Part shown: piece after piece, positions 31,899 through 48,112 of the stretch
Numbering within the stretch: position 1 is the stretch's first letter
Layout: every line of letters starts with the position of its first letter
DNA from: Ralstonia pickettii DTP0602
Lineage (GTDB): Bacteria; Pseudomonadota; Gammaproteobacteria; Burkholderiales; Burkholderiaceae
Length of the DNA stretch: 64,000 nt
Direction: 5' to 3'
Assembly (NCBI GenBank): GCA_000471925.1
Contig: CP006668.1
Span: forward strand, 806,001 to 870,000
Made by a program: the position numbers and the translations under genes
Notes under the pieces: generated by a model
Database searches by the model: none
Told to the model about the DNA's origin: nothing
Seen by the model: the letters and a program-made list of their open reading frames with translations, nothing else

Positions 31899-33179
31899 TC
31901 AGAGTGTGGTGGGGCTGGCCGCCTGCGCCGCGATGTCGCGCACCAGCTGCCGCAGCGGCAGGGTGTCGTCGCACAGCCGCGGCAGCAGGCCTTCGACGGC
32001 ATGGCCGAAGAGCGCGCGCAACGGGCGCAGGTCGGCGCCGGCATTGACGGCAATGGCGTGGCAGAGCCGGCCGTGCCGGGTGCCGAGGAGCATGAACTTG
32101 GGCGAGGGCGCATCGCTGCCGGCGCTGCCGCGCCAGGCGTAGCGGGTGGCAGCGTGGGCCGCGCCGAGCATCTGCACATTGCAGCCGAACTGGTCGGTCC
32201 AGAACCAGGGCAGGGCGGCGGGCTCGGCCGGCATGCCCAGCATGGCAGCAGCGGCGATGCGGGCCTGCTCGTTGGCGCTTTGCCAGGATTCCAGCCGCAT
32301 ATGGTTGCCGAACTGCGGCTGATACTGGCTGCAGCAGTCGCCGGCGGCAAAGATGCCCGCCGCGCTGGTGCGCCCCTGTTCGTCGACCTGGATGCCGCCG
32401 TTGTCCGGGTGCAGCGCCAGGCCGGCAGCGGCGCCAAGCGCCACCTCCGGCGTCAGGCCGATCGCGACCACCACCAGCGGCGCGTGCAGGGCCGTGCCGT
32501 CCGCCAGCCGCAGCAGCACGCCATCGGCCTGCGGCATGAAGGCCGCGATGCCACAGTCGAGCCGCAGCCCGACGCCTTGCGCATGCACGCGCTGCGCCAG
32601 CCAGGTGCCAAGTTCGGGCGGAACGGCGCGGCCGAGCAGCCGGTCAGCGCTTTCGATCAGGGTGACCTTGAGACCCAGCCCGGCCGCGGTGGATGCCGTC
32701 TCCAGGCCGAGGAAGCCGCCGCCGATCACCACGACCTCGCCCGCCCGTTGCATGGCGTCGCGCAGGCGCGTGGCATCGTCGAGGGTGCGCAGGTAGTGCA
32801 CGTGCGTCGTGCCCGGCGGCAGCGCCGGCAGCACGCGCGCGTTGCCGCCGGTCGCGAGCAGGCAGGTGGCGTAGCGGATCGCATCGCCGCCGGCGCAGTG
32901 CGCCACGCTGCGCGCGGGATCCAGTGCGGTGACCGTGGTGCCGAGCCGCAGCTCGATGTCCTGCCCGGCATAGAAACCGGCCGGATGCACGCCGATCTTG
33001 CCGTCCTGCGCGCCGTCCGCAAGCACGGACTTGGACAGCGGCGGGCGTTCGTACGGCGCATGGGCTTCGCCGCCGGCCATGACGATGCGGCCGCCATGGC
33101 CCAGCCTGCGCAGTTCGGCGGCGGCCATCGCACCGGCCTGGCCGGCGCCGACGATCAGGATGGGCGCGTCCTGTGACAT
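31899..33179 (-). CDS. Ferredoxin reductase (FAD/NAD type) of the Rieske oxygenase system
   Basis: 426 residues, putidaredoxin-reductase-like. FAD motif LIVGAGQAGAMAAAEL at the N-terminus, NAD motif VVIGGGFLGLETAST mid-protein, second FAD motif GIFAAGDCC, and the C-terminal reductase domain with a Trp-rich segment (PWFWTDQFGCNVQMLG). It would pass electrons from NAD(P)H to the adjacent ferredoxin. AAGGAGCCGAGC precedes the ATG at 33179. It sits 11 bp after the ferredoxin gene and 13 bp before the alpha-subunit gene. Confidence 0.9.
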   Translation of the reverse strand: MSQDAPILIVGAGQAGAMAAAELRRLGHGGRIVMAGGEAHAPYERPPLSKSVLADGAQDGKIGVHPAGFYAGQDIELRLGTTVTALDPARSVAHCAGGDAIRYATCLLATGGNARVLPALPPGTTHVHYLRTLDDATRLRDAMQRAGEVVVIGGGFLGLETASTAAGLGLKVTLIESADRLLGRAVPPELGTWLAQRVHAQGVGLRLDCGIAAFMPQADGVLLRLADGTALHAPLVVVAIGLTPEVALGAAAGLALHPDNGGIQVDEQGRTSAAGIFAAGDCCSQYQPQFGNHMRLESWQSANEQARIAAAAMLGMPAEPAALPWFWTDQFGCNVQMLGAAHAATRYAWRGSAGSDAPSPKFMLLGTRHGRLCHAIAVNAGADLRPLRALFGHAVEGLLPRLCDDTLPLRQLVRDIAAQAASPTTL

Positions 33180-33190
33180 GCTCGGCTCCT

Positions 33191-33496
33191 TCAAAGCTCG
33201 ACCCAGACCCGGCGGTCTTCAAACTTGACCGGGTAGGTGCGGATGTCGCTGGTGGCCGGCGCGCACATGGCCTTGCCGGAGCGGATGTCGAAGCGCGCCT
33301 GGTGCAGCGGGCATTCGATGCAGCCGTCCTCCAGGTAGCCGTCGGACAGCAGCGCGTACTGGTGCGTGCAGACGTTATCGGTGACGAAGTACTCGTCGTC
33401 GCTGCGATAGACGGCGAGCTGGCGGTCGCCGAGCGTCAGCGGCATTACCTCGTCGTTCTGCAACTGTTGCGCCGCATCGATTTCAATCCATGCCAT
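33191..33496 (-). CDS. Rieske-type ferredoxin of the oxygenase system
   Basis: 101 residues with a Rieske cluster (CTHQYALLSDGYLEDGCIECPLHQ: C-x-H, then C-x2-H). It shuttles electrons from the reductase to the oxygenase. CGGAGACTGCC precedes the ATG. It is the first gene of the oxygenase operon and begins 25 bp after a pair of TCAG-N4-CTGA sites surrounding a TATACT box. Confidence 0.92.
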   Translation of the reverse strand: MAWIEIDAAQQLQNDEVMPLTLGDRQLAVYRSDDEYFVTDNVCTHQYALLSDGYLEDGCIECPLHQARFDIRSGKAMCAPATSDIRTYPVKFEDRRVWVEL

Positions 33497-33520: not shown

Positions 33521-33554
33521 TCAGTATGCTGAGTATATAAGATCAGTGTACTGA
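33521..33554 (-). promoter_or_regulatory. Paired PicR-type operators and -10 box of the Rieske oxygenase operon
   Basis: TCAGTATGCTGA (33521-33532) and TCAGTGTACTGA (33543-33554) are spaced 22 bp, about two helical turns, so they lie on one DNA face. Between and overlapping them the minus strand reads TATACT (33538-33533), a likely -10. Binding would occlude RNA polymerase. Confidence 0.75.
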
Positions 33555-33578
33555 TGTTTTTGAGCGGAAGTATTCTGG

Positions 33579-34643
33579 TTAACCCTGTCCGGGACTGGCG
33601 GCACCCGGTTGTGCCCGTCCGGCTGCCGGCCCTCCGGTCTGCGGCGCGGGGCGCGCCTGCCAGCGCGCCAAGATCTCGCCCATGATGCCGCGGCGGAAGG
33701 TCAGCACGCACACCACGAAAATCAGCCCGGTCACCATGCTGACCGACTCGCCGAGCGCATCGAACCAGCCGACCCCGGTCATGGCCGCGAGCGCGTTGCC
33801 CGCATCCCCCAGCTTGTTTTCCAGCGCCACGATGACCAGCGCGCCGACGATCGGTCCCGAAAGCGTGCCCATGCCACCGACCAGGGTCATCAGGATGACC
33901 GTGCCGGACATCATCCAGTGCACATCGGTGAGCGTGGCGAAGCCCAGCACCAGGGTCTTGAGCGCGCCCGCCAGCCCCGCCAGCGCTGACGACAGCACGA
34001 ACGCCAGCAGCTTGAAGCGGTCGGCGTCATAGCCCAGCGAGACCGCTCGCGGCTCGTTCTCCTTGATCGCGCGCAGGATCTGCCCGAAGGGCGAATTGAC
34101 GATGCGCATGATGCCGAGGAAGGCCGCGGCAGTGATCCCCAGCACCACGTAGTACATGGTGTGGTCCGACCCCAGCGGCAGCATGCCGAACAGGTCGCCC
34201 CGCGGCACTGCCTGCAGGCCGTCTTCGCCGCCCGTCGCTGGTGACTGCAGGCAGAAGAAGTAGAACATCTGCGCCAGCGCCAGCGTGATCATGGCGAAGT
34301 AGATGCCCTGCCGCCGTATTGCCAGGGCGCCGAAGACCAGGCCGAGCAGGGCGCCGAATGCCGTGCCGGCCAGCAGGCCGAGTTCCGGCGTCAACCGGAG
34401 GAACTTCATCGCATAGCCGCAGGCATAGGCGGCGCCGCCGAAGAAGGCCGCATGGCCGAACGACACCAGCCCGGTATAGCCCAGCAGCAGGTTGAAGGCG
34501 CAGGCAAAGAGCGCGAAGCACAGCAGCTTCATCACCAGCACCGGGTAAGCGCCCAGCCAGGGCGCCAGCAACAGGGCTGCCAGCAGCAGCCCGTAGGCGT
34601 ACGTTGCGCGCTTTCCGGTTACCATATTTCCGCTAGCCATCAT
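33579..34643 (-). CDS. ABC importer, branched-chain amino-acid type, permease 2 (LivM-like)
   Basis: 354 residues with the LivM pattern (NLLLGYTGLVSFGHAAFFGGAAYACGYAM; IRRQGIYFAMITLALAQMFYFF; SPFGQILRAIKENEPRAVSLGYDADRFKLLAFVLSSALAGLAGAL). The start overlaps the LivH stop (ATGATG; first ATG used) with AAAGGAGAA directly upstream. It ends in a Pro/Gly/Ala-rich tail of about 25 residues. Last gene of the five-gene importer operon; substrate probably an aromatic acid such as picolinate, from context. Confidence 0.9.
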   Translation of the reverse strand: MMASGNMVTGKRATYAYGLLLAALLLAPWLGAYPVLVMKLLCFALFACAFNLLLGYTGLVSFGHAAFFGGAAYACGYAMKFLRLTPELGLLAGTAFGALLGLVFGALAIRRQGIYFAMITLALAQMFYFFCLQSPATGGEDGLQAVPRGDLFGMLPLGSDHTMYYVVLGITAAAFLGIMRIVNSPFGQILRAIKENEPRAVSLGYDADRFKLLAFVLSSALAGLAGALKTLVLGFATLTDVHWMMSGTVILMTLVGGMGTLSGPIVGALVIVALENKLGDAGNALAAMTGVGWFDALGESVSMVTGLIFVVCVLTFRRGIMGEILARWQARPAPQTGGPAAGRAQPGAASPGQG

Positions 34644-35524
34644 TTCTCCTTTCCAAAGAGCCCGGCGGGGCGCACCAGCAGCACGCACACCATGGCAACG
34701 AAGACCACCGTCGCGGAGGCTTCGGGGTAGTAGACCTTGGTGATGCCCTCGAAGACACCCAGCCCCAGGCCGGTGAAGATCGAGCCCAGGATCGATCCCA
34801 TGCCGCCGATCACCACCACGGCGAACACGGTGATGATGAGGTTCTGTCCCATCAGCGGCGACACCTGCATCACCGGCGCGGCCAGCACGCCGGCCAGCGC
34901 CGCCAGGCCCACGCCAAAGGCGTAGGTCAGCGTCACCAGCAGCGGCACGTTGACGCCGAAGGCCTCGACGATGCGCGGGTTCTCCGTGCCGGCGCGCAGG
35001 TAGGCGCCCAGCCGGGTCTTCTCGATCATGAACCAGGTGGCAAAGCACACCGACAGCGAAGCCACTACGACCCAGGCGCGATAGTTGGGCAGCACCATGA
35101 AGCCCAGTTGGCTGACGCCGGACAAGGCTTCCGGCGTCGGGTAGGGCAGGCCGGAGACGCCATAGACGGAGCGCAGCAAGCCCTCGATCAGCAGGCAGAT
35201 GCCCAGCGTCAGCAGCAGCCCGTACAGGTGGTCGAAGCGGTAGAGGTGGCGCAGCATGGTGCGCTCCAGCACCACGCCGAGCGCGCCGGCCACCACCGGT
35301 GCCAGCACCAGCATCAGCCAGTAATTCAGCCCCAGGTAGTTCAGGCCCATCCACGCCAGCACCGCGCCGAGCATGAACAGCGCGCCGTGGGAGAAGTTGA
35401 TCACGTTGAGCAGCCCGAAGATCACCGCCAGCCCCAGGCTCAGGATCGCGTAGAACGATCCGTTGACCAGCCCCAGCAGCAACTGGCTCAGCAGCGCGGG
35501 CAGGGGCACTCCAAACAATTCCAT
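34640..35524 (-). CDS. ABC importer, branched-chain amino-acid type, permease 1 (LivH-like)
   Basis: 294 residues, LivH-type membrane protein (LVNGSFYAILSLGLAVIFGLLNVINFSHGALFMLGAVLAW; VVVIGGMGSILGSIFTGLGLGVFEGITKVYYP). It pairs with LivM to form the channel. It lies 12 bp after the LivF-type ATPase gene and overlaps livM by 4 bp. Confidence 0.92.
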   Translation of the reverse strand: MELFGVPLPALLSQLLLGLVNGSFYAILSLGLAVIFGLLNVINFSHGALFMLGAVLAWMGLNYLGLNYWLMLVLAPVVAGALGVVLERTMLRHLYRFDHLYGLLLTLGICLLIEGLLRSVYGVSGLPYPTPEALSGVSQLGFMVLPNYRAWVVVASLSVCFATWFMIEKTRLGAYLRAGTENPRIVEAFGVNVPLLVTLTYAFGVGLAALAGVLAAPVMQVSPLMGQNLIITVFAVVVIGGMGSILGSIFTGLGLGVFEGITKVYYPEASATVVFVAMVCVLLVRPAGLFGKEK

Positions 35525-35536
35525 GACAATGTCTCC

Positions 35537-36274
35537 TTACACGCCCAGCAAGGCGCTGAGCGTTGGCATCTTGCGTTCAAGCTCGGCGGCCGGAAATGCC
35601 TCCACGATGCGGCCGTGCTCCATCACGAAGAAGCGGTCCGCCAGCGGCGCGGCAAAGCGGAAGTTCTGCTCCACCATGACGATGGTGTAGCCGCGGCCGC
35701 GCAGCATGGCGATCATCCTGGCCAGCTTCTGCACGATCACGGGCGCGAGGCCTTCCGAGATCTCGTCGAGCAGCAGCACGCTCGCGCCGGTGCGCAGGAT
35801 GCGCGCAACCGCCAGCATCTGCTGCTCCCCGCCCGACATGCGCGTGCCCTGGCTCTTGCGCCGCTCCTGCAGGTTGGGGAACATCTCGTAGATCTCGCCC
35901 AGCGTCATCGGCTCGCGCAGTCCCATGGCGCCCGGGGTGCGGGCGAACTGCGGCGGCAGCAGCAGGTTCTCCTCGCAGGACAGGCTGGCGAAGATGGCGC
36001 GTTCTTCCGGGCAGTAGCCCAGCCCGAGCGGCGCAATGCGGTGCGTCTTCATGCCGATGGTTTCCTGGTCATGCACGCGCACCGACCCCTTGCGCGCGCC
36101 GACCAGGCCCATGATGGCGCGCAGCGTGGTGGTGCGGCCGGAGCCGTTGCGGCCGAGCAGCGTCACCACCTCACCGGGGTTGACGGTCAGGTCTACGCCA
36201 TGAAGGATGTGCGATTCGCCATACCAGGCGTGCAGGCCGCGCAGTTCGAGGGCAGGGGAGGTACTCACGCTCAT
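35537..36274 (-). CDS. ABC importer ATPase 2 (LivF-like), Walker A lysine replaced by arginine
   Basis: 245 residues. Signature MSGGEQQMLAVARIL and Walker B VLLLDEISEGLAP are intact. Walker A reads GRNGSGRT (41-48): the nucleotide-binding lysine is Arg47 (codon CGC). That change usually weakens ATP binding, so this subunit may be the degenerate partner of the importer, with LivG doing the work; some burkholderial LivF proteins may share it. It overlaps livG by 4 bp. Confidence 0.9.
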   Translation of the reverse strand: MSVSTSPALELRGLHAWYGESHILHGVDLTVNPGEVVTLLGRNGSGRTTTLRAIMGLVGARKGSVRVHDQETIGMKTHRIAPLGLGYCPEERAIFASLSCEENLLLPPQFARTPGAMGLREPMTLGEIYEMFPNLQERRKSQGTRMSGGEQQMLAVARILRTGASVLLLDEISEGLAPVIVQKLARMIAMLRGRGYTIVMVEQNFRFAAPLADRFFVMEHGRIVEAFPAAELERKMPTLSALLGV

Positions 36275-37077
36275 GATGCCTCCATGCTTGTCGCCGCCGC
36301 AGCTGCGGGGCGGTCTTCCGGTTCTTCGGTGGTTCCCATATAGGCTTCCCTTACCTGCGGATTGCGCGAGATCTCGTCATATGTCCCCTCGGCCAGCACC
36401 GCGCCGCGCTGCAGCACGGTGATGCGGTCGACGATGGACGACACCACGCTCATGTTGTGCTCCACCATCAGCACGGTACGTCCGGCGGAAACGCGCTTGA
36501 TCAGGGCGGTGACGGTCTCCACGTCTTCGTGGCCCATCCCTTGCGTGGGCTCGTCCAGCAGCATCAGCTCCGGATCGGTCGCCAGCGTGGTGGCAAGCTC
36601 CAGCGCGCGCTTGCGGCCGTAGGCCAGCTCCGCCGTGCCCAGGTGCGCGAAGCCGGCCAGGCCGACCGCATCCAGCAGCTCCATCGCCCGCGCGTCCAGC
36701 CGCGACAGGGAGCGCTTGCCGCGCCAGAAATGCCAGGCGGTGCCGAGACTGCGCTGCAGCGCGATGCGCACGTTCTCCAGCACTGTCAGCTGCGGAAATA
36801 CCGCCGAGATCTGGAACGAGCGAATCACCCCCATGCGGGCGATCTGGGCCGGCCGCAGCGCGGTGATATCGGTGCCGTTGAAATGGATCGAGCCGGACGA
36901 AGGCGCATGGAACTTGGTCAGCAGGTTGAAGCAGGTGGTCTTGCCGGCGCCGTTGGGGCCGATCAGCGCATGGATCGAGCCTCGCCGCACGGACAGGCTG
37001 ACATCGCTCACGGCGGTAAAGCCCTTGAACGCCTTGGTCAGGCCGTGCGTCTGCAGGATTACGTCGGTGTCAGGCAT
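36271..37077 (-). CDS. ABC importer ATPase 1 (LivG-like)
   Basis: 268 residues with a canonical Walker A (GPNGAGKTT), Walker B (LMLLDEPTQGM) and H-loop (MVEHNMSVV). The signature region (AELAYGRKRALELATTLA) has the LivG form. It powers the uptake system together with the LivF-like subunit. It lies 7 bp after the binding-protein gene. Confidence 0.93.
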   Translation of the reverse strand: MPDTDVILQTHGLTKAFKGFTAVSDVSLSVRRGSIHALIGPNGAGKTTCFNLLTKFHAPSSGSIHFNGTDITALRPAQIARMGVIRSFQISAVFPQLTVLENVRIALQRSLGTAWHFWRGKRSLSRLDARAMELLDAVGLAGFAHLGTAELAYGRKRALELATTLATDPELMLLDEPTQGMGHEDVETVTALIKRVSAGRTVLMVEHNMSVVSSIVDRITVLQRGAVLAEGTYDEISRNPQVREAYMGTTEEPEDRPAAAAATSMEAS

Positions 37078-37084
37078 GGCGCGC

Positions 37085-38302
37085 TCACTTCTTCACCAGC
37101 GGGCATTCGCTGGCCGACAGCGGACGGAAGGCCTCGTCGCCCGGGATCGTGCCGATGTACCTGACCAGGTCCCACGGTCCCTTCGACTCGGCCGGCGTCT
37201 TGGCCTGGGCCAGGTACATGTCGTGCACCATGCGGCCGTCGGCGCGCACCTTGCCGTTGCGCACGAAGGCATCGGACACGGGCAGCGCGCGCATCTTTTC
37301 CGCCACGGCCGGGCCCTCTACGGTCTTTGCGGCTTCCACCGCCTTCAGGTAATGCAGCACGCCGGAATAGACGCCGATCTGGCCATGCGTGGGATAGGCC
37401 TTGTGGCGCTTGTAGTAGCGCTCGACGAAGTCCTTCGACTTGCCATCGAGGTCGAGCCGGAACGGGTCGACATAGGTCAGCCCCTGCGCAGCGGTCAGGC
37501 CCAGGCTCTTGAGATCGGTGATGAAGGTGGAGGGCGTGATCACGGTCTGGCCCGCCTTGATCAGGCCGAACTCGCCGGCCGCCTTGACACCGTTGATCAT
37601 GTCGTTGCCCGCGTTGGCCAGCACCACCACCTTGGCCTTGGAAGCCGACGCAGCGACCACCGGGCTGCTGAAGTCGCTGGCATTGAGCGGATGCCGGGTG
37701 CTGCCGACGTTCTTGCCGCCGCCGGCGTCCACGGCCTTGCGGAAGTCCGCTTCCAGCGACTGGCCGAAGGCGTAGTCGACGGTGATGTAGTACCAGCTGT
37801 TGCGCCCCTGTTCGATCAGGCGCCGTACCAGCGGATAAGACACTGAGTAGGTGTCCCATGCCCAGTGGAAGCCGGTGGGCGAGCAGTTCTGGTTGGTCAG
37901 CGCCATGGCGCCGCCGGTCGAGACGATGTCGATCTTTTGCTTCTGCCGCGCGACCTCCTGCACCGCCAGCGCGGTCGACGAGTTGGGGAAGTCGATCACC
38001 ATGTCGACACCGTCGGTATCGAACCAGCGGCGCGCCAGCGACGAGGCGATATCCGCCTTGTTCTGGTGGTCGGCGGACAGGACCGTCACGGGTTTGCCGA
38101 GGGCCTTGCCGCCGAATTCTTCCACCGCCATCTGCGCGGCTAGCACCGAGCCCTTGCCGGAGAGGTCGGCATAGGAGCCGGACATATCGGTAATGACGCC
38201 GATCTTCACGCCATTGGCGTCGGCCAGCGCGGGCGTGGCGGCGGCCAGGCCCAGCAGGGCGGAGGACGCGGCGAGGGTGCGGAGGATGCGAGAGGTGGGC
38301 AT
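37085..38302 (-). CDS. Periplasmic substrate-binding protein, LivK type
   Basis: 405 residues. A signal peptide (1 to about 27, ATPALADA) precedes a type-I periplasmic binding fold (VKIGVITDMSGSYADLSGKGSVLAAQMAVEEFGG; AGNDMINGVKAAGEFGL). It resembles the aromatic-compound subgroup of Liv binding proteins rather than the leucine-specific ones. First gene of the importer operon; a TCAG-N4-CTGA site lies about 100 bp upstream. Ligand likely picolinate or a relative, inferred. Confidence 0.88.
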   Translation of the reverse strand: MPTSRILRTLAASSALLGLAAATPALADANGVKIGVITDMSGSYADLSGKGSVLAAQMAVEEFGGKALGKPVTVLSADHQNKADIASSLARRWFDTDGVDMVIDFPNSSTALAVQEVARQKQKIDIVSTGGAMALTNQNCSPTGFHWAWDTYSVSYPLVRRLIEQGRNSWYYITVDYAFGQSLEADFRKAVDAGGGKNVGSTRHPLNASDFSSPVVAASASKAKVVVLANAGNDMINGVKAAGEFGLIKAGQTVITPSTFITDLKSLGLTAAQGLTYVDPFRLDLDGKSKDFVERYYKRHKAYPTHGQIGVYSGVLHYLKAVEAAKTVEGPAVAEKMRALPVSDAFVRNGKVRADGRMVHDMYLAQAKTPAESKGPWDLVRYIGTIPGDEAFRPLSASECPLVKK

Positions 38303-38398
38303 GGTAGCTCCAGGTTGTCTGCGCTAAAGGGATGGGTTGCGATGGTTGCGTTCGGCGTACCGCGGTGCCATCGCCGCACCGCGGTTTCGCTGAGAAAC

Positions 38399-38410
38399 TC
38401 AGTATGCTGA
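38399..38410. promoter_or_regulatory. PicR-type operator upstream of the ABC importer
   Basis: TCAGTATGCTGA, identical to copies at 33521, 40200 and 44830. It is a single copy without a clear partner 20-22 bp away. Its complement contains CATACT, which could serve as a -10 for the leftward importer operon. Confidence 0.65.
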
Positions 38411-38469
38411 ATAGATGGCCGGGAAAAAGGGCGGATCGCTCCGCCCTCCAGGTTCACCGGTGGCGCCGC

Positions 38470-40074
38470 TCAGGTCGCCAGGTCGCGGCCGCGCGTCTCC
38501 GGCACGAACAGCATGCCGATGACAAAGGCGAGTCCGGCGATGACCACCGGGTACCACAGGCCGAAGTACACGTCGCCGCTGGACACGTTCATGGCCGTGA
38601 CCACGAAGGACAGCATGCCGCCGACCCAGCCCGCCCCGAGGTGGAAGGGCAGCGACAGCGAGGTGTAGCGCACGCGGGCCGGGAACAGTTCCACCATGAA
38701 GGCCGCCATTGGCCCGTACACCATGGCCAGGAACAGGATCGGCACCAGCAGCAGCACGAACACCATCGGCGTGTTCATCTTTGCGGGGTCGGCCCGCTCC
38801 GGCCAGCCGGCCGCCACCAGCGCGCTCTTGATGGCGGCGCGGTCGAAACCCTGCAGCGTGCGGTTGCCGATGCGCACTTCCGCCTGCGCCGGATTGCTGG
38901 CCGGCGCGAAGGTGTAGCCCACGCCCAGGTCGGTCAGGTAGCCGCGGATCTTGTCGCAGGCCGACACCGGTTCGCCGAACAGGCGCGCCTTGCAGTCGCC
39001 GGCGGTCACCTGCACGGCGCCTTGCGATTGGAACTGCTCCAACGCTGGATTGGCATAGTGCGTGAGGCCCTTGAACACCGGCTGGATGCACACCGCCGCC
39101 AGCAGGCACGCGGCCATCATGATGTACTTGCGGCCGATGCGGTCGGACAGCCAGCCGAACAGCAGGTAGCAGGGCGTGGCCACCACCAGCGCGATCGCGA
39201 TCAGCATGTGGACGGTTTCAAGCGGCACATGCAGCGTCTTGTTGAGGAAGAACATCGTGTAGAAGTGGCCGGTGCCGAAGATCGCGCCCAGGCCGGCCGC
39301 CACCACGAACAGCAGCAGCACTGACTTGAGGTTGGTCCAGTTGGTGAAGCTCTCGCGGATCGGCGCCTTCGAGGTGGTATTGCTGGCCTTCATGCGGGCA
39401 AAGACCGGCGACTCGTGCAGCTTGCCGCGGATGTAGACCGAAATCACCAGCATCACCAGCGACACGATGAAGGGAATGCGCCAGCCCCAGTCCCGGAATT
39501 CAGCCTCGGTCAGGAAGGTCTTGAGCAGGTAGACCACGAACAGCGAGGCGAGCAGGCCCAGCGTGGCGGTGGTCTGCAGCGAGCTGGTATACAGGCCGCG
39601 CTTGTGCATCGGCGAGTGCTCGGCCACGTAGGTGACCGCACCGCCGACCTCGCCGCCGAGCGCCAGGCCCTGCAGCAGCCGCAGCAATACCAGCAGTACC
39701 GTGGCCGTGATGCCGATCTGCTCGTACGTGGGCAAGACGCCGACGCCCACGGTGGCAACCCCCATCAGCAGGATGGTGACCAGGAAGGTGTACTTGCGCC
39801 CGATCAGGTCGCCCAGGCGGCCGAACAGCAACGCGCCCACCGGGCGTATCAGGAAGCCGGCGCCGAAGGTAGCCAGGCTGGCGAGGAACGCGGCGGTTTC
39901 GTTGCCCTTGGGGAAGAAGAGTGCGCCGAAATACACTGCCAGCGCGGCATAGATATAAAAGTCGTACCACTCCATCAGGGCACCGAAGGAAGAGGCAAGT
40001 ATGACCTTGCGCTCCTCGGTAGTCATGCCGGAGGCGGGGGCGCTTGTCTCGGCGCGAGTCAGGCTGATCGTCAT
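38470..40074 (-). CDS. MFS permease, metabolite:H+ symporter (MHS) type, probable pathway-substrate uptake
   Basis: 534 residues, 12 helices with the MHS signature (SSFGALMEWYDFYIYAALAVYFGALFFP; GRLGDLIGRKYTF; LQGLALGGEVGGAV). An unusual soluble loop of roughly 110 residues lies between helices 8 and 9 (ALEQFQSQGAVQVTAGDCKARLFGEPVSACDKIRGYL...), containing two cysteines. AAGGACCCCCGCC precedes the ATG. The gene is divergent from picC and its upstream region has four operator sites, so it belongs to the regulon. It may transport picolinate (PicT-like); inferred. Confidence 0.87.
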   Translation of the reverse strand: MTISLTRAETSAPASGMTTEERKVILASSFGALMEWYDFYIYAALAVYFGALFFPKGNETAAFLASLATFGAGFLIRPVGALLFGRLGDLIGRKYTFLVTILLMGVATVGVGVLPTYEQIGITATVLLVLLRLLQGLALGGEVGGAVTYVAEHSPMHKRGLYTSSLQTTATLGLLASLFVVYLLKTFLTEAEFRDWGWRIPFIVSLVMLVISVYIRGKLHESPVFARMKASNTTSKAPIRESFTNWTNLKSVLLLFVVAAGLGAIFGTGHFYTMFFLNKTLHVPLETVHMLIAIALVVATPCYLLFGWLSDRIGRKYIMMAACLLAAVCIQPVFKGLTHYANPALEQFQSQGAVQVTAGDCKARLFGEPVSACDKIRGYLTDLGVGYTFAPASNPAQAEVRIGNRTLQGFDRAAIKSALVAAGWPERADPAKMNTPMVFVLLLVPILFLAMVYGPMAAFMVELFPARVRYTSLSLPFHLGAGWVGGMLSFVVTAMNVSSGDVYFGLWYPVVIAGLAFVIGMLFVPETRGRDLAT

Positions 40075-40199
40075 GGCGGGGGTCCTTTTGGTGAAGCTGT
40101 TGTCTCTGTATGTCTGTTCTTCCCGGCGGTGCCGGCGGCGCGCCCCAGGGCCTGTCGAGCCCTCGCGGAGTGCAGCACCGCATGCTTCCGATGCACCAG

Positions 40200-40231
40200 T
40201 CAGTATGCTGATGAGAAGCGCAGTATGCTGA
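40200..40231. promoter_or_regulatory. Paired PicR-type operators near the MHS permease gene
   Basis: TCAGTATGCTGA (40200-40211) and GCAGTATGCTGA (40220-40231), spaced 20 bp. They lie 126-157 bp upstream of the leftward permease. Confidence 0.7.
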
Positions 40232-40301
40232 GTAAAATGCGGGCCAGTCGCGGAGACTCCGGACAGGCCCAAACACTTGTTTAAACGGCTTTTTAATATC
40301 G

Positions 40302-40335
40302 TCAGCATACTGAACATCTGGGCGCAGTGTACTGA
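40302..40335. promoter_or_regulatory. Paired PicR-type operators in the permease/picC divergent region
   Basis: TCAGCATACTGA (40302-40313, the motif in reverse orientation) and GCAGTGTACTGA (40324-40335), spaced 22 bp as at the oxygenase promoter. Confidence 0.7.
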
Positions 40336-40380
40336 GCAGCCAATGCCATCGTTATAGGTGTTAACCCTCCGCGCGGCGTC

Positions 40381-40409
40381 TGGACTTTTCAAAAGCTGAT
40401 GACTAGAAT
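40381..40409 (+). promoter_or_regulatory. Candidate promoter of the picCGEDF operon
   Basis: TGGACT (40381-40386), 17-bp spacer, TAGAAT (40404-40409). It would initiate near 40416, right before the operator at 40421. Confidence 0.5.
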
Positions 40410-40420
40410 CCGGAAACTAA

Positions 40421-40432
40421 TCAGTGTACTGA
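40421..40432. promoter_or_regulatory. PicR-type operator at the picC start region
   Basis: TCAGTGTACTGA, arms TCAGT/ACTGA perfectly symmetric. It lies 37 bp before the picC ATG, just downstream of the predicted transcription start. Confidence 0.7.
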
Positions 40433-40468
40433 GCATTTGCGATTTCACCATCAGGAGCCCCCACCAGC

Positions 40469-41431
40469 ATGAGCAACGTAAAGAAGATCGCACTGGAAGA
40501 GCATTTCATGACGCCGGGTTTCCAGGCCTATTCCAGGGCATTCACCCAGCATCTCGATCCGGCGGTGTTCGCCGAGCTGGGCCGCCGCCTGGCCGACTTC
40601 GACGAATGCCGCCTCGCCGAGATGGACCGCTTCGGCATCGACATCACGGTGCTGTCGCAAACCGGGCCGGGCGTGCAGGGCGAGCCCGACGCGCAGCGCG
40701 CCGTGGCGCGGGCGCGCGAGAGCAATGACTTCCTGGCCGCGCAGATTGCGCGCCACCCCACGCGCTACGCCGGCTTCGCGGCGCTGCCGATGCATGACCC
40801 GGAACAGGCCGCGCGTGAACTGGAGCGCGCCGTGCGCGAGCTGGGTTTCAAGGGCTCGCTGGTAAACGGCCATACCCAGGGGCGCTATTACGACGATCCT
40901 GCTTACGACGTCTTCTGGGAACGCATGCAGGCGCTGGACGTGCCCATGTACCTGCATCCTACCGATGCCTTCGTGCCGCCGCAGGTGCTGGGCGGGCACC
41001 CGGAGCTGACGGGGGCGGCGTGGGGCTGGGGCGTGGAGACCGCGTCGCATGCGCTGCGGCTGCTCTTCGGCGGCGTGTTCGACCGCTTCCCGCGCCTGAA
41101 GCTCATCCTCGGCCATATGGGCGAGGGGCTGCCGTTCCAGCGCTGGCGCTTCGACAGCCGCTTTGCGGTCTATTCGCACGGCGTGCGGCTGGCGCGCGCG
41201 CCTTCCGAGTACATCGGCACCAATATCGTCATCACCACCTCGGGCGTTTGCTCGCACGGCACGCTGGCCGGCGCCATTGCCGAACTCGGACCGGAGGCCG
41301 TGATGTTCTCGGTCGACTATCCCTACGAATCCACCGAAGTGGCGGCGAAGTTTATCGAAGAGGCGCCGCTGGACGACACGACGCGCGCGCTGGTCTGCCA
41401 CGGCAACGCGCGGCGCCTGCTCAAGCTGTAA
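40469..41431 (+). CDS. picC: Amidohydrolase-2 family decarboxylase, probable 3,6-dihydroxypicolinate decarboxylase
   Basis: 320 residues of the ACMSD/gamma-resorcylate decarboxylase type. Metal ligands of this family are in place: E10-x-H12 (LEEHF), H163 (YLHPTD) and D283 (SVDYPYES), with H216 in GHMGEGLPF. Such zinc enzymes remove carboxylates non-oxidatively from hydroxylated rings. Here it would turn 3,6-dihydroxypicolinate into 2,5-dihydroxypyridine, the entry point of the genes that follow. First of five close genes; AGGAGC is 13 nt before the ATG. A related hydroxy-aromatic substrate is the alternative. Confidence 0.82.
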   Translation: MSNVKKIALEEHFMTPGFQAYSRAFTQHLDPAVFAELGRRLADFDECRLAEMDRFGIDITVLSQTGPGVQGEPDAQRAVARARESNDFLAAQIARHPTRYAGFAALPMHDPEQAARELERAVRELGFKGSLVNGHTQGRYYDDPAYDVFWERMQALDVPMYLHPTDAFVPPQVLGGHPELTGAAWGWGVETASHALRLLFGGVFDRFPRLKLILGHMGEGLPFQRWRFDSRFAVYSHGVRLARAPSEYIGTNIVITTSGVCSHGTLAGAIAELGPEAVMFSVDYPYESTEVAAKFIEEAPLDDTTRALVCHGNARRLLKL

Positions 41432-41461
41432 ACAGCGCAACGCATACAACAGAGAACCCTC

Positions 41462-42214
41462 ATGCAAAAAGTCTTTCGCATCGGCCAGATCGTTCCCAGC
41501 TCGAACACGACGATGGAAACCGAAATCCCCGCCATGCTGACCGCACGCCAGCAGATCCGTCCCGAGCGCTTCACCTTCCACTCCAGCCGCATGCGGATGA
41601 AGAAGGTGGTCAAGGAAGAGCTCGCCGCCATGGATGCCGAATCCGACCGGTGCGCGGTGGAGCTGAGCGACGCCCGCGTCGACGTGCTCGGCTATGCCTG
41701 CCTGGTGGCCATCATGGCGATGGGGCACGGCTATCACCGCAAGTCGGAGCAGCGGCTCAAGGCCCATACCGTCGAGAACGGCGGCGATGCGCCGGTCATC
41801 ACCAGTGCCGGTGCGCTGGTCGATGCGCTGCGCGTGATCGGCGCCCGCCGTATCGCCGTGGTCGCGCCGTACATGAAGCCGTTGACGGAGCTGGTGGTGG
41901 ACTACATCCGCAACGAGGGCTATGAAGTGGTGGATTACCGCGCGCTCGAGATCCCGGACAACCTGGACGTCGGCCGACACGATCCGGCGCGGCTGCCTGG
42001 CATCGTGTCGCAGATGAACCTTGCCGAGGTCGATGCCATCGTGCTGTCGGCGTGCGTGCAGATGCCGTCGCTGCCGGCGGTGGCGAAGGTCGAGGCGATG
42101 ACGGGCAAGCCGGTCATCACCGCGGCCATCGCCACCACCTACGCGATGCTGAAGGCGCTGGACCTGGAGCCGGTGGTGCCCGGTGCCGGCGCACTGCTGT
42201 CGGGCGCTTACTGA
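41462..42214 (+). CDS. picG: Maleate cis-trans isomerase
   Basis: 250 residues of the Asp/Glu/hydantoin racemase superfamily. The two catalytic cysteines lie at C80 (GYACLVA) and C198 (LSACVQMPS), as in maleate isomerases (NicE-type). It converts maleate to fumarate, the last step before the TCA cycle. It lies 30 bp after picC and 9 bp before the deformylase gene. The nicotinate-pathway equivalent is nicE. Confidence 0.88.
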   Translation: MQKVFRIGQIVPSSNTTMETEIPAMLTARQQIRPERFTFHSSRMRMKKVVKEELAAMDAESDRCAVELSDARVDVLGYACLVAIMAMGHGYHRKSEQRLKAHTVENGGDAPVITSAGALVDALRVIGARRIAVVAPYMKPLTELVVDYIRNEGYEVVDYRALEIPDNLDVGRHDPARLPGIVSQMNLAEVDAIVLSACVQMPSLPAVAKVEAMTGKPVITAAIATTYAMLKALDLEPVVPGAGALLSGAY

Positions 42215-42223
42215 GAGCATGCG

Positions 42224-43051
42224 ATGACGACCTTCCTCTATGGCGCCAATGTCCATGCCAATGGCATTCGCCAGCACTACCTGCGCTATGGCCGCAGCGA
42301 CGGCGAACGGGCCGGGCGCGATCCCGTCATCATCGTCCCGGGCATCACCAGCCCGGCTATCACCTGGGGCTTTGTCGGCGAGCGCTTCGGCGCCTCGTTC
42401 GATACCTACATCCTGGACGTACGCGGCCGCGGCCTGTCGTCCGCCGGGGCGGAGCTGGACTACGGCCTCGATGCCCAGGCCCGCGACGTGGTGGCCTTTG
42501 CCGAGGCGCTGGGCCTGCGCCGCTACAGTGTGGTCGGCCATTCGATGGGCGCCCGCATCGGCGTGCGCGCCGCGGCGGGGCAGCCCGAAGGCCTGGCGCG
42601 GCTGGTGATGGTCGATCCTCCGGTGTCCGGACCCGGGCGCCGTCCGTATCCCGCGCAATTGCCCTGGTACGTCGATTCCATCCGCTTGTCGCAGCACGGC
42701 ACGGACCTGGAAGGCATGCGCCGCTTCTGCCCGACCTGGACCGACGAGCAACTGCGCCTGCGCGCCGAATGGCTGCATACCTGCAATGAGGATGCTGTCG
42801 TGCGCAGTTTCGAGGACTTCCATCGCGACGACATCCATGCGGACCTGCCAAAGGTCACGGTGCCGGCGCTGCTGATGACCGCCGGGCGTGGCGATGTGGT
42901 GCGCGCGGAAGACGTGGCAGAGATCCGCACGCTGCTGCCCGGCGTGCTGGTCAGCCACGTGGCCGGCGCCGGCCACATGATCCCGTGGGATGACGAAGCG
43001 GGCTTCTACGCGGCGCTGGGGGACTTCCTCGGCGCGACGCTGACGCGATAA
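42224..43051 (+). CDS. picE: N-formylmaleamate deformylase (alpha/beta hydrolase)
   Basis: 275 residues. The nucleophile elbow GHSMG places Ser107, with D131 (VMVDPP) and H251 (GAGHMIP) completing the triad. The spacing matches NicD of Pseudomonas putida exactly (S101/D125/H245 offset by 6, from memory). It hydrolyses N-formylmaleamate to maleamate and formate in the cytoplasm. It sits between the maleate isomerase and the 2,5-dihydroxypyridine dioxygenase. The nicotinate-pathway equivalent is nicD. Confidence 0.88.
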   Translation: MTTFLYGANVHANGIRQHYLRYGRSDGERAGRDPVIIVPGITSPAITWGFVGERFGASFDTYILDVRGRGLSSAGAELDYGLDAQARDVVAFAEALGLRRYSVVGHSMGARIGVRAAAGQPEGLARLVMVDPPVSGPGRRPYPAQLPWYVDSIRLSQHGTDLEGMRRFCPTWTDEQLRLRAEWLHTCNEDAVVRSFEDFHRDDIHADLPKVTVPALLMTAGRGDVVRAEDVAEIRTLLPGVLVSHVAGAGHMIPWDDEAGFYAALGDFLGATLTR

Positions 43052-43067
43052 CGAACCAGGAGCCGAA

Positions 43068-44123
43068 ATGCCGGTAAGTGACCACCAGATGATCGAGGCC
43101 TGGCGCAAGGTGCTGAAGCTGTCACGGCTCGAGCCAGGACAGACCGTCACCATCCTGACCAGCGCCGCCACCCACCCGCAGACGCTGTCCACCGCGCTGA
43201 TCGCGACCCAGGCGATGGGCGCCATCGTCAACCGGCTCGACCTGCCGCCGGTCAATGGCGAGAAGGCGCTGAGCCGCGACGCGCTGGCCTACCTGGGCAC
43301 GACTCCGCTCACGGGCAACCGTGCAGCGATTGCCGCGCTCAGGGAAAGCGACCTGGTGCTTGACCTGATGACGCTGCTGTTCTCACCGGAGCAGCACGGC
43401 ATCCTGAAGGGCGGCACGAAGATCCTGCTCGCCGTCGAGCCACCCGAGGTGCTGGCGCGCATGGTGCCGTGCGAGGCCGACCGCGAGCGCGTCAAGGCCG
43501 CCGCCGGGCGGCTGGCGGCCGCGAAGGAAATGCACGTGGTGTCGCCGGCCGGCACCGACCTGCGCTGCCCGCTGGGCGAGTTCCCCGCTATCAGCGAGTA
43601 CGGCTTTGTCGACGAGCCCGGCCGCTGGGACCACTGGCCGAGCGGCTTCGCGCTGACCTGGCCGAACGAAGGCGCGGCCAGCGGCACCATCGTGCTGGAC
43701 CGCGGCGACATCCTGCTGCCGCAGAAGACCTACGTCACCGAGCCGGTCAGGCTGACGGTGGAGGAGGGCTTTGCCACGCGCATCGAAGGCGGCCTGCATG
43801 CCGAGCTGCTGAGCGAGTACATGGCCTCGTTCAACGATCCCGAAGCCTATGCCATCTCGCATATCGGCTGGGGATTGCAGCCGCGCGCGCACTGGTCGAC
43901 GCTCGGGCTGTACGACCGCGAAGCCACCATCGGCATGGATGCGCGCGCCTTCGAAGGCAACTTCCTGTTCTCGCTGGGTCCCAACAACGAAGCGGGCGGC
44001 AGCCGCACCACGGCCTGCCATATCGATATTCCCGTGCGCCACTGCACTGTGCGCCTTGACGGCGTGGACGTGGTGACCCGCGGCAAAGTCACCGACGGCT
44101 TCTGTTACCCGGAGGAAAAGTAG
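43068..44123 (+). CDS. picD: 2,5-dihydroxypyridine 5,6-dioxygenase
   Basis: 351 residues, the length of NicX (350), with the M29-aminopeptidase-like fold of this extradiol-type enzyme. H265 (ISHIGWG), H318 and D320 (ACHID) occupy the positions I recall for the Fe(II) ligands of NicX; E177 and H189 are also present. It opens 2,5-dihydroxypyridine to N-formylmaleamate using O2. CAGGAGCCGAA precedes the ATG. The neighbours supply the next three steps. The nicotinate-pathway equivalent is nicX. Confidence 0.9.
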   Translation: MPVSDHQMIEAWRKVLKLSRLEPGQTVTILTSAATHPQTLSTALIATQAMGAIVNRLDLPPVNGEKALSRDALAYLGTTPLTGNRAAIAALRESDLVLDLMTLLFSPEQHGILKGGTKILLAVEPPEVLARMVPCEADRERVKAAAGRLAAAKEMHVVSPAGTDLRCPLGEFPAISEYGFVDEPGRWDHWPSGFALTWPNEGAASGTIVLDRGDILLPQKTYVTEPVRLTVEEGFATRIEGGLHAELLSEYMASFNDPEAYAISHIGWGLQPRAHWSTLGLYDREATIGMDARAFEGNFLFSLGPNNEAGGSRTTACHIDIPVRHCTVRLDGVDVVTRGKVTDGFCYPEEK

Positions 44124-44125
44124 CC

Positions 44126-44752
44126 ATGCACAAGGAGATCGGCGCATACCAGCGCCAGGGCTTCGGCAGCGAGCTGGAGCTGGACGGCCCGTTCGGGCTG
44201 CTGGTGGTGGATTTCGTCAACGGCTTTGCCGACCCGGACGTGTTCGGCGGCGGCAATATCCGCGAGGCCATCGCCAATACCGTGCCGCTGCTGGCGGTGG
44301 CGCGGCGCGAGGGCTGGGCCATCGCGCACAGCCGCATCGTCTTTGCGGACGATGGGTCGGATCACAACATCTTCTCCATGAAGGTGCCGAAGATGCTGTC
44401 GCTGAAGGAGCGCGCGCATAACAGCGTCATCGTCGAAGAACTGGCGCCGCAGGCGGGCGAACTGATGGTGCGCAAGACCGTGCCGTCGGCGTTCTTTGGC
44501 ACGTCGCTGGCGGCGTGGCTCACGCAGCGCGGCGTGCGCACGCTGGCGGTGGCCGGTGCCGTGACCAGCGGCTGCGTGCGCGCCAGCGTGGTCGATGCCA
44601 TGCAGTACGGCTTCCGGCCGCTGGTGTTGTCCGATTGCGTGGGCGACCGCGCAATCGGCCCGCATGAAGCGAACCTGTTCGACATGGCGCAGAAGTACGC
44701 AACGGTCACCACGCGTGCTGAAGGGCTGGCTGCCATCGGGGTGGGCGCATGA
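44126..44752 (+). CDS. picF: Maleamate amidohydrolase (isochorismatase-like)
   Basis: 208 residues of the cysteine-hydrolase superfamily with the triad D29 (VVDFVNGF), K117 (VRKTVPSAF) and C150 (TSGCVRAS). It hydrolyses maleamate to maleate and ammonia. The start is 2 bp after the picD stop (GGAGGAAAAGTAGCC upstream). Last gene of the picCGEDF set. The nicotinate-pathway equivalent is nicF. Confidence 0.9.
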   Translation: MHKEIGAYQRQGFGSELELDGPFGLLVVDFVNGFADPDVFGGGNIREAIANTVPLLAVARREGWAIAHSRIVFADDGSDHNIFSMKVPKMLSLKERAHNSVIVEELAPQAGELMVRKTVPSAFFGTSLAAWLTQRGVRTLAVAGAVTSGCVRASVVDAMQYGFRPLVLSDCVGDRAIGPHEANLFDMAQKYATVTTRAEGLAAIGVGA

Positions 44753-44794
44753 GCGCCGGCCACCGTGGCCAGCAAGGATGCGGTAAAGCCACAA

Positions 44795-44841
44795 TTGACA
44801 ACCTCTTGCGCAGTTTCATAGCATTTTGGTCAGTATGCTGA
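44795..44841 (+). promoter_or_regulatory. Promoter and PicR-type operator of the molybdenum hydroxylase operon
   Basis: TTGACA (44795-44800), 18-bp spacer, TAGCAT (44819-44824). TCAGTATGCTGA (44830-44841) lies over the predicted start site, 34 bp before the large-subunit ATG. A bound repressor would block initiation of the first catabolic step. Confidence 0.7.
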
Positions 44842-44875: not shown

Positions 44876-47272
44876 ATGACATCGTCGACGGAACCGGATC
44901 ATCCGGACGCAGTGCGCGGCCAGGGCGTAGGCGCTCGCGTGGCACGCAAGGAGGACGCCAGGCACCTGCATGGCAAGGGACGCTTCGTGGCGGATATCGC
45001 CATGCCGGACCTGCAGGAGGTGGCGTTCCTGCGCAGCCCGGTGGCGCATGCCCGGCTGTTGTCGGTGACCAAGCCCGCACGCCACGCGGCGGCGGTGATC
45101 GTGCGCGAAGACATGGCGGCCGCCAGCGATATCGTCGCCGACTCGGCGTTCCCCTCCTATCAGCCATCCGCACAGCCGCCGCTGGCCAGCGGCAAGGTGC
45201 GCTTCGTCGGCGAGCCGGTGGCGATGGCGTTCGCCCCGACCCGCGCCGAGGCGGAAGACATCGCCGAGCAGGTCGCGGTCGAGTTCGACGAGCTCACCGC
45301 ACTGACCGACGTGACGCAGGCGCGCCAGCTGTCGGAGGAGGTGCGTGTGCACGATCACTGGCGCGACAACACCTTCCTGACGCTGAACGCCGACAAGAAT
45401 TTCGAGGCGCGCCGGCACGAGGCCTCGGTCGTGGTCCGGCGCAGCATCGACCTGGCCCGCCAGTGCATGGTGCCGATGGAAGGCAAGGCGGTGCTCGCCT
45501 ACTGGGACCACCAGTTCGACCAGCTGGTGGTGTACAGCGCCACGCAGGTGCCGCATATGATCCGCACCATCCTGGGCCACTGCCTGGGGCTAGAGCAGGA
45601 GCGCGTGCGCGTGATCTCGCCCGACGTGGGCGGCGCTTTCGGCTACAAGTGCGTGCTGCAGCAGGAAGAGCTGTGCATCGCCTGGCTCGCCATGACCTAC
45701 AAGCGGCCGTTCCGCTTTATCGAGGACCGGCGCGAGCACCTGACCGCCGGCGCCAATTCGCGCGAGCACCACTACGACCTGACCGCCTACGCCGATGCCC
45801 GCGGCCGCCTGCTGGCGCTGGACGCAAAGATCGTGATCGACGGTGGCGCCTATTCGGTATGGCCGTTCACCATCGGGCTGGAGCCGGGGCAGGCGATCGG
45901 CAACCTGCCCGGGCCCTATGCCTTTGACGGCTATCGCTGCGAGACCACGTGCGTAGCCACCAACAAGCCGGGCTTCGTACCGTATCGCGGCGTGGCGCGC
46001 ACCGGCGTCTGCTTTGCGATGGAACTGATGATCGACGCCATCGCGCGCGAGGTGCAGCGCGAGCCATGGGAAGTGCGCTGCGAGAACCTGGTGCCGCCCG
46101 AGGCCATGCCCTACGTCAACGTCAGCAACAAGCACTTCGACGGTGGCGACTATCCGGCCAGCGTGCGCAAGGCCATGGAAATGATCGGCCTGCCCGAAAT
46201 CCGCGCGCGCCAGCGGGCGGGGCCGCAGGGCAGCCGCTATGTCGGCGTGGGCTTTGGCACCTACACGGAGCAGTCGGCGCACGGCACCTCGGTGTTCGCG
46301 GCCTGGGGCACGCCGGTGATCCCGGGCTACGATTCGGCCACGGTGCGCATCACGCCGGATGGCGGGCTGGAGGTGCGTGTCGGCGTGCATTCGCACGGGC
46401 AGGGCATGGAGACCACGTTCGCGCAGATTGCGCACGAGATCCTGGGCATCGATATCGGGCGGATCAAGCTGGTGCATGGCGATACCGGGCTGACGCCGTT
46501 CTCGACCGGCACCTATGCCTCGCGCTCGCTGGTGATGTCGGGCGGCGCGGTGTCGCGCGCCTGCAAGGCACTGCTGCCGCGCCTGCAGAAGATCGGCGCG
46601 CATATGCTGGGGCAGCCGGTGGAGGCGGTCGCCTTCGCAGCGGGCACTGTCCGGGCCGGCGATGCCGGCGGCGTCGATATCGTCCGCATTGCCAACGCGT
46701 GGTACATCAATCCACACCTGCTGCCGCCTGACGTCGACGCGCAGGGTCTGGAGGTCACCATGGGCTTCAAGCCGGCGGTCGATACCGGCAGCTTTACCTA
46801 CGCCACGCATGCCGTCGCGGTGGAGGTCGATGTCGACTCGGGCCATGTCGAGATCCTCGACTACGTGGTGGTCGAGGACTGCGGCACCATGATCAACCCG
46901 ATGGTGGTCGAAGGCCAGACCTACGGCGGGGTCGCGCAGGGCATCGGCACCGCGATGTTCGAAGAGATGCGCTACGACGGCAACGGCCAGCCGCTGGCGT
47001 CGACGCTGGCGGACTACATGCTGCCCGGGCCGACCGAGATCCCGGCGATTCGCATCCATCATTTCGAGACGCCGTCGCCGCATACCGAGTTCGGCGCCAA
47101 GGGCATGGGCGAGGGTGGGGCCATCGCGCCGCCCGCGGCCATCTTCAACGCGGTGAACGACGCCTTGCGCGGCTTCGGCGTCGAACTGAAGGAAACGCCG
47201 CTGACGCCAAGAAAGATCCTTGAAGCGCTGGATGCGGCAGAAGCCGGCGCGCAAAACATGAAGGCAGCCTGA
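44876..47272 (+). CDS. Xanthine-dehydrogenase-family molybdopterin subunit, probable picolinate 6-hydroxylase large subunit
   Basis: 798 residues, CoxL/XdhB-type. Typical motifs: GRFVADIAMPDLQEVAFLRSPVAHA at the N-terminus, SATQVPHMIRTILGHCLGLEQERVRVISPDVGGAFGYK, EDRREHLTAGANSREH, VPYRGVARTGVCFAMELMID and the C-terminal GAKGMGEGGAIAPPAA, which places the catalytic Glu. It holds the molybdenum-cytosine dinucleotide site and would insert oxygen from water at C6 of picolinate. Followed within 3 bp by the FAD subunit gene. In the A. faecalis pic cluster this step is PicA; I leave the subunit symbol open. Confidence 0.85.
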   Translation: MTSSTEPDHPDAVRGQGVGARVARKEDARHLHGKGRFVADIAMPDLQEVAFLRSPVAHARLLSVTKPARHAAAVIVREDMAAASDIVADSAFPSYQPSAQPPLASGKVRFVGEPVAMAFAPTRAEAEDIAEQVAVEFDELTALTDVTQARQLSEEVRVHDHWRDNTFLTLNADKNFEARRHEASVVVRRSIDLARQCMVPMEGKAVLAYWDHQFDQLVVYSATQVPHMIRTILGHCLGLEQERVRVISPDVGGAFGYKCVLQQEELCIAWLAMTYKRPFRFIEDRREHLTAGANSREHHYDLTAYADARGRLLALDAKIVIDGGAYSVWPFTIGLEPGQAIGNLPGPYAFDGYRCETTCVATNKPGFVPYRGVARTGVCFAMELMIDAIAREVQREPWEVRCENLVPPEAMPYVNVSNKHFDGGDYPASVRKAMEMIGLPEIRARQRAGPQGSRYVGVGFGTYTEQSAHGTSVFAAWGTPVIPGYDSATVRITPDGGLEVRVGVHSHGQGMETTFAQIAHEILGIDIGRIKLVHGDTGLTPFSTGTYASRSLVMSGGAVSRACKALLPRLQKIGAHMLGQPVEAVAFAAGTVRAGDAGGVDIVRIANAWYINPHLLPPDVDAQGLEVTMGFKPAVDTGSFTYATHAVAVEVDVDSGHVEILDYVVVEDCGTMINPMVVEGQTYGGVAQGIGTAMFEEMRYDGNGQPLASTLADYMLPGPTEIPAIRIHHFETPSPHTEFGAKGMGEGGAIAPPAAIFNAVNDALRGFGVELKETPLTPRKILEALDAAEAGAQNMKAA

Positions 47273-47275
47273 CCG

Positions 47276-48103: not shown

Positions 48104-48112
48104 GGAGCGCCC

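Follow-up and report, generated by a model that had tools for sequence, protein, structure and literature searches.

What do the repeated TCAG-N4-CTGA palindromes in a putative picolinate-degradation island of Ralstonia pickettii DTP0602 serve, and which protein recognizes them? The stretch analyzed here, referred to as the window, comprises 64,000 nucleotides (contig CP006668.1, positions 806,001 to 870,000). The sites, their confinement to the island, their position and spacing, and their conservation together with the gene cluster and its MarR-family gene are directly observed. We propose, with a probability of about 0.85, that they are operators of the cluster's own PicR-type MarR repressor; the best reading of the latter is that it is the Cupriavidus counterpart of PicR from Alcaligenes faecalis, i.e., one system found in two genera. 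In A. faecalis JQ135, PicR is reported to be a MarR repressor of the pic cluster, to bind three TCAG-N4-CTNN sites, and to respond to 6-hydroxypicolinate.

Occurrence of the palindromes in the genome and the island

A pattern scan of the window reproduced each coordinate of the nine 12-mers listed in the initial annotation, seven being perfect copies of TCAGTRTRCTGA and two having GCAG as the first half, at 40220 and 40324, as described there; the count of eight motifs in its heading was one short (Table 1). All nine sites do lie in promoter gaps, as had been claimed, and the four gaps containing them make up 766 of the 11,321 bp, the probability of such an arrangement by chance being about 3e-11. 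Gaps 1 to 4 are, respectively, those upstream of the Rieske ferredoxin gene (sites 33521 and 33543), upstream of the gene for an ABC-transporter solute-binding protein (38399), between the divergent MFS transporter and amidohydrolase genes (40200, 40220, 40302, 40324, and 40421), and upstream of the molybdenum hydroxylase operon (44830). The distances in the three pairs, 22, 20, and 22 bp, agree with the 20 or 22 bp given earlier.

Confinement depends on the stringency of the pattern. A genome scan for TCAG-N4-CTGA had been suggested, with many random copies named as the outcome that would speak against a regulon. In the whole genome (8.13 Mb), the loose pattern has 147 occurrences, compared with 36 for the reversed control pattern, and was rejected as a regulon marker, whereas the exact TCAGTRTRCTGA occurs at seven places, all seven of them inside the 11.3 kb island; given one copy, the six others would all land there by chance with a probability of about 10^-17. 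Thus, the copies elsewhere count against the loose pattern, while the tight one passes. If one mismatch is tolerated, the window has 34 matches to the loose pattern vs. 19.0 expected (SD 3.76; none of 100 shuffles reached 34), i.e., this form by itself is just moderately enriched. Also set aside as a marker was KCAGYRTRCTGA, which has many matches elsewhere, mostly with CGTG or CATG as the center. A perfect loose match at 56958 lies in or beside long reading frames, which we take to resemble cytochrome c maturation genes, and was treated as background.

Conservation across genera and association with the MarR gene

Loci retrieved with the amidohydrolase as a query (the best 80 of 294 were fetched, 1.59 Mb; the window makes 81) were used to assess conservation. 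Among all palindromes of the XXXX-N4 type, TCAG-N4-CTGA is the most enriched in these 1.59 Mb, with 237 sites vs. 20.3 expected. The center is pyrimidine–purine–pyrimidine–purine (YRYR) in 215 of the 237, and all 215 are outside recognized pic genes (59% of bases); among the remaining 22, with other centers, eight are inside such genes. In the promoter counts, a site had to lie within 110 bp of the start and to have a YRYR center and one intact half, and genes with less than 90 bp of upstream DNA or less than 39% identity to the window protein were omitted, leaving 64 ferredoxin, 81 amidohydrolase, and 59 MarR promoters, the window included; the gene maps keep hits of at least 60 bits that overlap no better hit. 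Each of the 64 ferredoxin promoters has a site (49 perfect, 12 with one, two with two, and one with three mismatches), while a control set of 7228 equally long coding pieces contains no perfect and 38 one-mismatch sites. Amidohydrolase promoters have a site in 48 out of 81 cases, 44 of them perfect.

The sites also go together with the regulator gene. Of the 60 searched genomes of the genus, 23 have a close MarR relative (E <= 1e-60); the copy number of TCAGTRTRCTGA is 5 to 10 in 22 of them and one in the remaining genome, G192. In the 37 genomes without a close relative, it is five in one case (G172, spread over five contigs) and zero to three in the rest, the medians of the two sets being seven and one, respectively. 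In G192, a deletion (locus L123, G192:C3, around 4216) fuses codons 271–421 of the oxygenase large subunit to codons 275–389 of the hydroxylase small subunit; it took the middle of the cluster with its sites, and the MarR gene and its own site remain. The truncated large subunit of this locus is hidden by the gene-map filter and visible in the raw hits. Since the sites and the MarR gene lie in one cluster, their co-occurrence is no proof of binding. G163 has three TCAGTGTACTGA copies outside its pic cluster (L126, L127, L128), and no pic gene was seen around these or around one fetched copy each of G160 and G172.

Outside Cupriavidus, MarR relatives with 47–80% identity are found in 58 of 70 pic loci, linking the gene to the picolinate cluster. 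Weaker relatives from the same family of bacteria were considered in loci of about 3.4 kb each. In all eight with pic-type genes (L086–L093), a perfect site lies no more than 250 bp from the MarR start, in a position common to the MarR gene and a divergent MFS-type gene; none of the 14 others (L085, L094–L106) has one. The recognition helix is DRTTTADVVRR in the window protein and ERSSVAEVIPR-like (ERSS/ERTT-VAEVIPR) in L094, L095, L097, and L098.

Although the nine sites had been taken for the complete operator set, a tenth one, half-degenerate and upstream of the MarR gene, had been missed. This proposed self-operator, TCAGTGTGCATA, lies 28 bp upstream of the start codon, directly 3' of a TATACT box. 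For comparison, 20 of the 23 MarR-bearing genomes of the genus were fetched, and all 20 distinct sequences (own included) share a block of TATAC followed by TCAG-YRTR-C(ATA or TAA)-ACAA, the DNA around it being diverged; the right half is CATA, unlike CTNN, in 15 of the 20. Among the 59 MarR promoters, five have a perfect site, 22 a site with one, three with two, and five with three mismatches, and 24 none. In other genera, too, the MarR promoter tends to have an imperfect site: the right half is CTAA in loci of Achromobacter (seven), Bordetella (two), Variovorax (two), and Pigmentiphaga (one) and in one metagenome-assembled genome (MAG) locus; the left half is GCAG or ACAG in four further Pigmentiphaga loci and one MAG; and six loci of the Pusillimonas group have TCTG or TATG. 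A rule of imperfect self-sites has two sets of counterexamples, namely, the five perfect sites, all in Caballeronia and probably serving a divergent MFS gene as well, and the 24 promoters without the required form. The simplest reading of the MarR-promoter site is a weak autoregulatory operator.

Across the window and the 80 loci, neighboring sites at most 60 bp apart, with one mismatch allowed, were counted as pairs. Of 63 such pairs, 60 are spaced by 20 to 23 bp, and three, one-mismatch matches in Cupriavidus, by 30 bp. The pairs precede ferredoxin, amidohydrolase, MFS, TRAP-type, and ABC solute-binding protein genes and also occur a long way upstream of a single MarR gene; the TRAP assignment is based on a DctP match of L021 in Pfam. 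We group them into about ten promoter-by-lineage sets, and not 63 independent cases. Pairs are seen in just 22 of the 81 loci (Cupriavidus, Achromobacter, Bordetella, one Pigmentiphaga, one Pusillimonas; none in the Burkholderia, Caballeronia, Pseudomonas, and Variovorax loci of the set), which counts against a pair rule, as does the relatedness of the source genera, by which the P value for the spacing overstates the independent evidence. The spacing of two helical turns, seen in all three pairs of the window, is consistent with two dimers sitting side by side on one DNA face, possibly in a cooperative manner.

Proposed mechanism and alternative explanations

The sites had initially been described as overlapping TATACT, TAGCAT, or predicted starts. 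TATACT, CATACT, and TAGCAT indeed occur at or beside sites, but several of them do not belong to the best-scoring promoter of the gap. Site 44830 is at the start predicted from TTGACA-18-TAGCAT (score 13.4), and site 40421 directly follows TGGACT-17-TAGAAT (score 11.3, tied with a candidate at 40211/40233). The promoter with TATACT beside 33521 and with site 33543 in its spacer is the second-best of its gap (7.2 vs. 7.7), CATACT inside site 38399 has a promoter score of 5.1, the best candidate of the MFS gene (6.5) is far from the 40200/40220 pair, and the TATACT box at the self-site ranks fourth among the promoters predicted in its gap. Hence, the evidence for a site over a promoter is weak for 33521/33543, 38399, and the MFS pair.

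We infer that the PicR-type repressor binds the TCAG-YRTR-CTGA palindromes as a dimer which, when bound in the promoter gaps, would sterically block RNA polymerase. Its targets would be the ferredoxin/oxygenase, ABC transporter, MFS transporter, amidohydrolase–dihydroxypyridine, and molybdenum hydroxylase operons. At the repressor's own promoter, the half-degenerate and weaker site would provide loose autoregulation, and an early pathway intermediate, probably 6-hydroxypicolinate, would release the repressor. This yields a directly testable regulator–operator assignment and a tight consensus usable for annotation of picolinate regulons in several genera; it also offers a comparative case of a small catabolic regulon keeping a weak self-operator along with phased strong operators. 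A more general suggestion, which we make tentatively and with somewhat more doubt than belief, is a two-tier code across several genera, with near-perfect, often paired sites on catabolic and transport promoters, one selectively maintained imperfect self-site, and an operator acquired by each of the transporters (ABC, MFS, TRAP). If it holds, the repressor would shut its targets first and itself last, and unrelated transporters recruited in different genera would each have gained the same operator.

As is reported for PicR of A. faecalis, the window has a MarR protein beside picolinate genes, proposed TCAG-N4-CT operators, and sites both upstream of the amidohydrolase operon and within the oxygenase–transporter/hydroxylase gap. 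The seven perfect sites conform to the reported TCAG-N4-CTNN form, the two GCAG sites differ from it in the first base, and the right half of the self-site has CA in place of CT. There are differences as well: reportedly, PicR has three sites in which the two final bases of the right half vary, whereas the window has seven perfect and two one-mismatch palindromes plus the degenerate self-site, with three phased pairs and both ABC and MFS transporters under the proposed control. No A. faecalis record is among the best 80 of the 294 amidohydrolase loci. The earlier proposal of one regulon with the MarR protein at 29478 as a PicR-like repressor and with sites for both transporters is supported by conservation across genera.

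Several observations weigh against this assignment. The regulon is argued from comparative sequence evidence. No site of the required form is found within 110 bp in 33 of the 81 amidohydrolase promoters; among these, eight Caballeronia loci have intact halves with another center, such as TCAGCCTACTGA, and other amidohydrolase genes without a site may be transcribed as part of an operon that begins further upstream. Among the ten alphaproteobacterial loci that include a MarR relative, nine lack a perfect site at 260 bp or less from the amidohydrolase gene. One-mismatch forms occur in Advenella loci and two alphaproteobacterial MAG loci; Bradyrhizobium loci L063, L071, L073, and L078 have the asymmetric TCAGTATACATC or its reverse, not the full palindrome, at several promoters, and the three omitted Bradyrhizobium ferredoxin promoters have three-mismatch forms only. 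Co-occurrence could reflect joint inheritance: in G192, with the MarR gene kept and the cluster lost, one copy is left. Of the 12 non-Cupriavidus loci without a MarR relative in the fetched DNA, six, some on short contigs, have perfect sites (L015, L019, L048, L052, L053, L064), and three Advenella loci carry one-mismatch sites with no MarR relative in the fetched DNA. L085, the closest of the other weaker relatives (63% identical), has no site, and might belong to a pic cluster further away. Recognition-helix letters separate the groups uncleanly, L102 and L104 having DRANTADV and DRASTADV, while L101, beside another oxygenase, combines a pic-like recognition helix with no site. Finally, the close Cupriavidus MarR genes have just the degenerate site nearby.

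These points bear on the possibility that the palindromes serve another regulator, e.g., the product of the HTH_3 gene downstream of the hydroxylase operon or a distant one, the MarR gene being a bystander. We consider this unlikely: the six perfect-site loci without a MarR relative would fit it, and the HTH_3 gene is seen in four of ten Cupriavidus loci and elsewhere may lie just past the fetched DNA, but it is found in none of the 70 non-Cupriavidus loci, where the sites persist and a MarR relative mostly accompanies them; moreover, the MarR promoter itself has a conserved site, and perfect sites go with pic-type MarR genes and not with the 14 other relatives. An origin of the repeats by chance or from base composition, as terminator parts, or as a mobile repeat, with no regulator involved, is hardly credible. 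The abundance of the loose pattern in the genome and the modest one-mismatch count in the window would agree with such an origin; it is already contradicted by the conservation tests, as the sites are retained at equivalent promoters across genera and the MarR-promoter site is kept amid diverged DNA, while the tight form is confined to the island and its promoter gaps, and an Rfam scan of 29000–50000 gave no family at the gathering score.

It is also very unlikely that the MarR protein, besides repressing, activates transcription or loops DNA. On this view, the distal pairs 40200/40220 and 40302/40324, lying 145–269 bp from the amidohydrolase start in addition to a proximal single site, would not act by simply blocking a transcription start; still, the gap is divergent, so that the pairs may just serve the MFS promoter, and the proximal site follows a well-scoring predicted promoter.

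Gene cluster and related regulators

Table 1. Proposed operators and genes of the island (window coordinates).
Feature	Coordinates	Strand	Evidence	Remarks
Self-operator TCAGTGTGCATA (proposed)	29450–29461	+		left half intact, right half degenerate
Operator TCAGTATGCTGA	33521–33532		motif scan; genome scan; cross-locus map	ferredoxin promoter
Operator TCAGTGTACTGA	33543–33554		motif scan; genome scan; ferredoxin-promoter counts	22 bp from 33521 site
Operator TCAGTATGCTGA	38399–38410		motif scan; genome scan; locus comparison	upstream of solute-binding protein gene
Operator TCAGTATGCTGA	40200–40211		motif scan; genome scan	MFS side of divergent gap
Operator GCAGTATGCTGA	40220–40231		motif scan	GCAG form; 20 bp from 40200 site
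Operator TCAGCATACTGA	40302–40313		motif scan; genome scan	reverse of TCAGTATGCTGA
Operator GCAGTGTACTGA	40324–40335		motif scan	GCAG form; 22 bp from 40302 site
Operator TCAGTGTACTGA	40421–40432			directly 3' of predicted promoter TGGACT-17-TAGAAT
Operator TCAGTATGCTGA	44830–44841			over predicted start of hydroxylase operon, TTGACA-18-TAGCAT
MarR-family regulator, PicR-like	29478–30005	+	Pfam MarR 2.1e-13	175 aa
Ring-hydroxylating oxygenase small subunit	30045–30569	-	Pfam PF00866	
Ring-hydroxylating oxygenase large subunit (Rieske)	30596–31861	-	Pfam PF00355, PF00848	start codon not fixed
Ferredoxin reductase	31899–33194	-	Pfam PF07992, PF14759	
Rieske ferredoxin	33191–33496	-	Pfam PF00355	first gene of oxygenase operon
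ABC transporter operon, branched-chain-amino-acid type	33579–38302	-	Pfam Peripla_BP_6, BPD_transp_2 twice, ABC_tran	solute-binding protein (37085–38302), two permeases, two ATPases (Pfam scan without the second ATPase, 35537–36274)
MFS transporter	38470–40074	-	Pfam PF00083, PF07690	
Amidohydrolase	40469–41431	+	Pfam PF04909	putative PicC-like decarboxylase
Maleate isomerase-like (Amdase) protein	41462–42214	+	Pfam PF17645	putative function, from context
Alpha/beta hydrolase	42224–43051	+	Pfam PF00561	putative NicD-like deformylase, from context
2,5-Dihydroxypyridine dioxygenase, NicX-like (putative)	43068–44123	+	context and conservation	
Isochorismatase-fold amidase	44126–44752	+	Pfam PF00857	putative NicF-like maleamate amidohydrolase
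Three-subunit molybdenum hydroxylase	44876–49282	+	Pfam MoCoBD_1/2, FAD_binding_5, Fer2_2	picolinate dehydrogenase-like, putative substrate
Helix-turn-helix (HTH_3) gene	49318–49923			downstream of hydroxylase operon

The gene set presumably matches the picolinate (pic) pathway. Pfam matches identify a molybdenum hydroxylase, a multi-component oxygenase, an amidohydrolase, an alpha/beta hydrolase, and an amidase, with predicted enzyme activities; the dihydroxypyridine dioxygenase is a putative member of the set, as scans of its gene against Pfam and NCBIfam gave no family. Among named relatives of the amidohydrolase, the closest comes from Cupriavidus necator (94% identical), on which the assignment of the window to this genus is based. 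The ABC transporter operon is 80–98% identical across nine Cupriavidus loci. In the hydroxylase small subunit (48113–49282), a CoxG domain is C-terminal to the [2Fe-2S] domain.

The regulator belongs to the MarR-family winged-helix proteins, scoring 50.3 bits with PF01047 (cut-off 24.6). The closest solved structure by sequence is PcaV (4fht, E 1e-23), which shares the MarR fold and, in the N-terminal part, the RRLxQxH stretch. PcaV is said to regulate aromatic-acid catabolism, its pathway and organism group being different from those of the window. HosA (8aga, E 5e-17) has the same fold, with similarity weaker than that of PcaV.

Beyond the MarR gene, the region 23190–26900 looks like a TRAP-like transporter set, as we presume, with no perfect site at it. 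Distant relatives (27–29% identical) of its solute-binding protein adjoin operators in Achromobacter and Variovorax pic loci.

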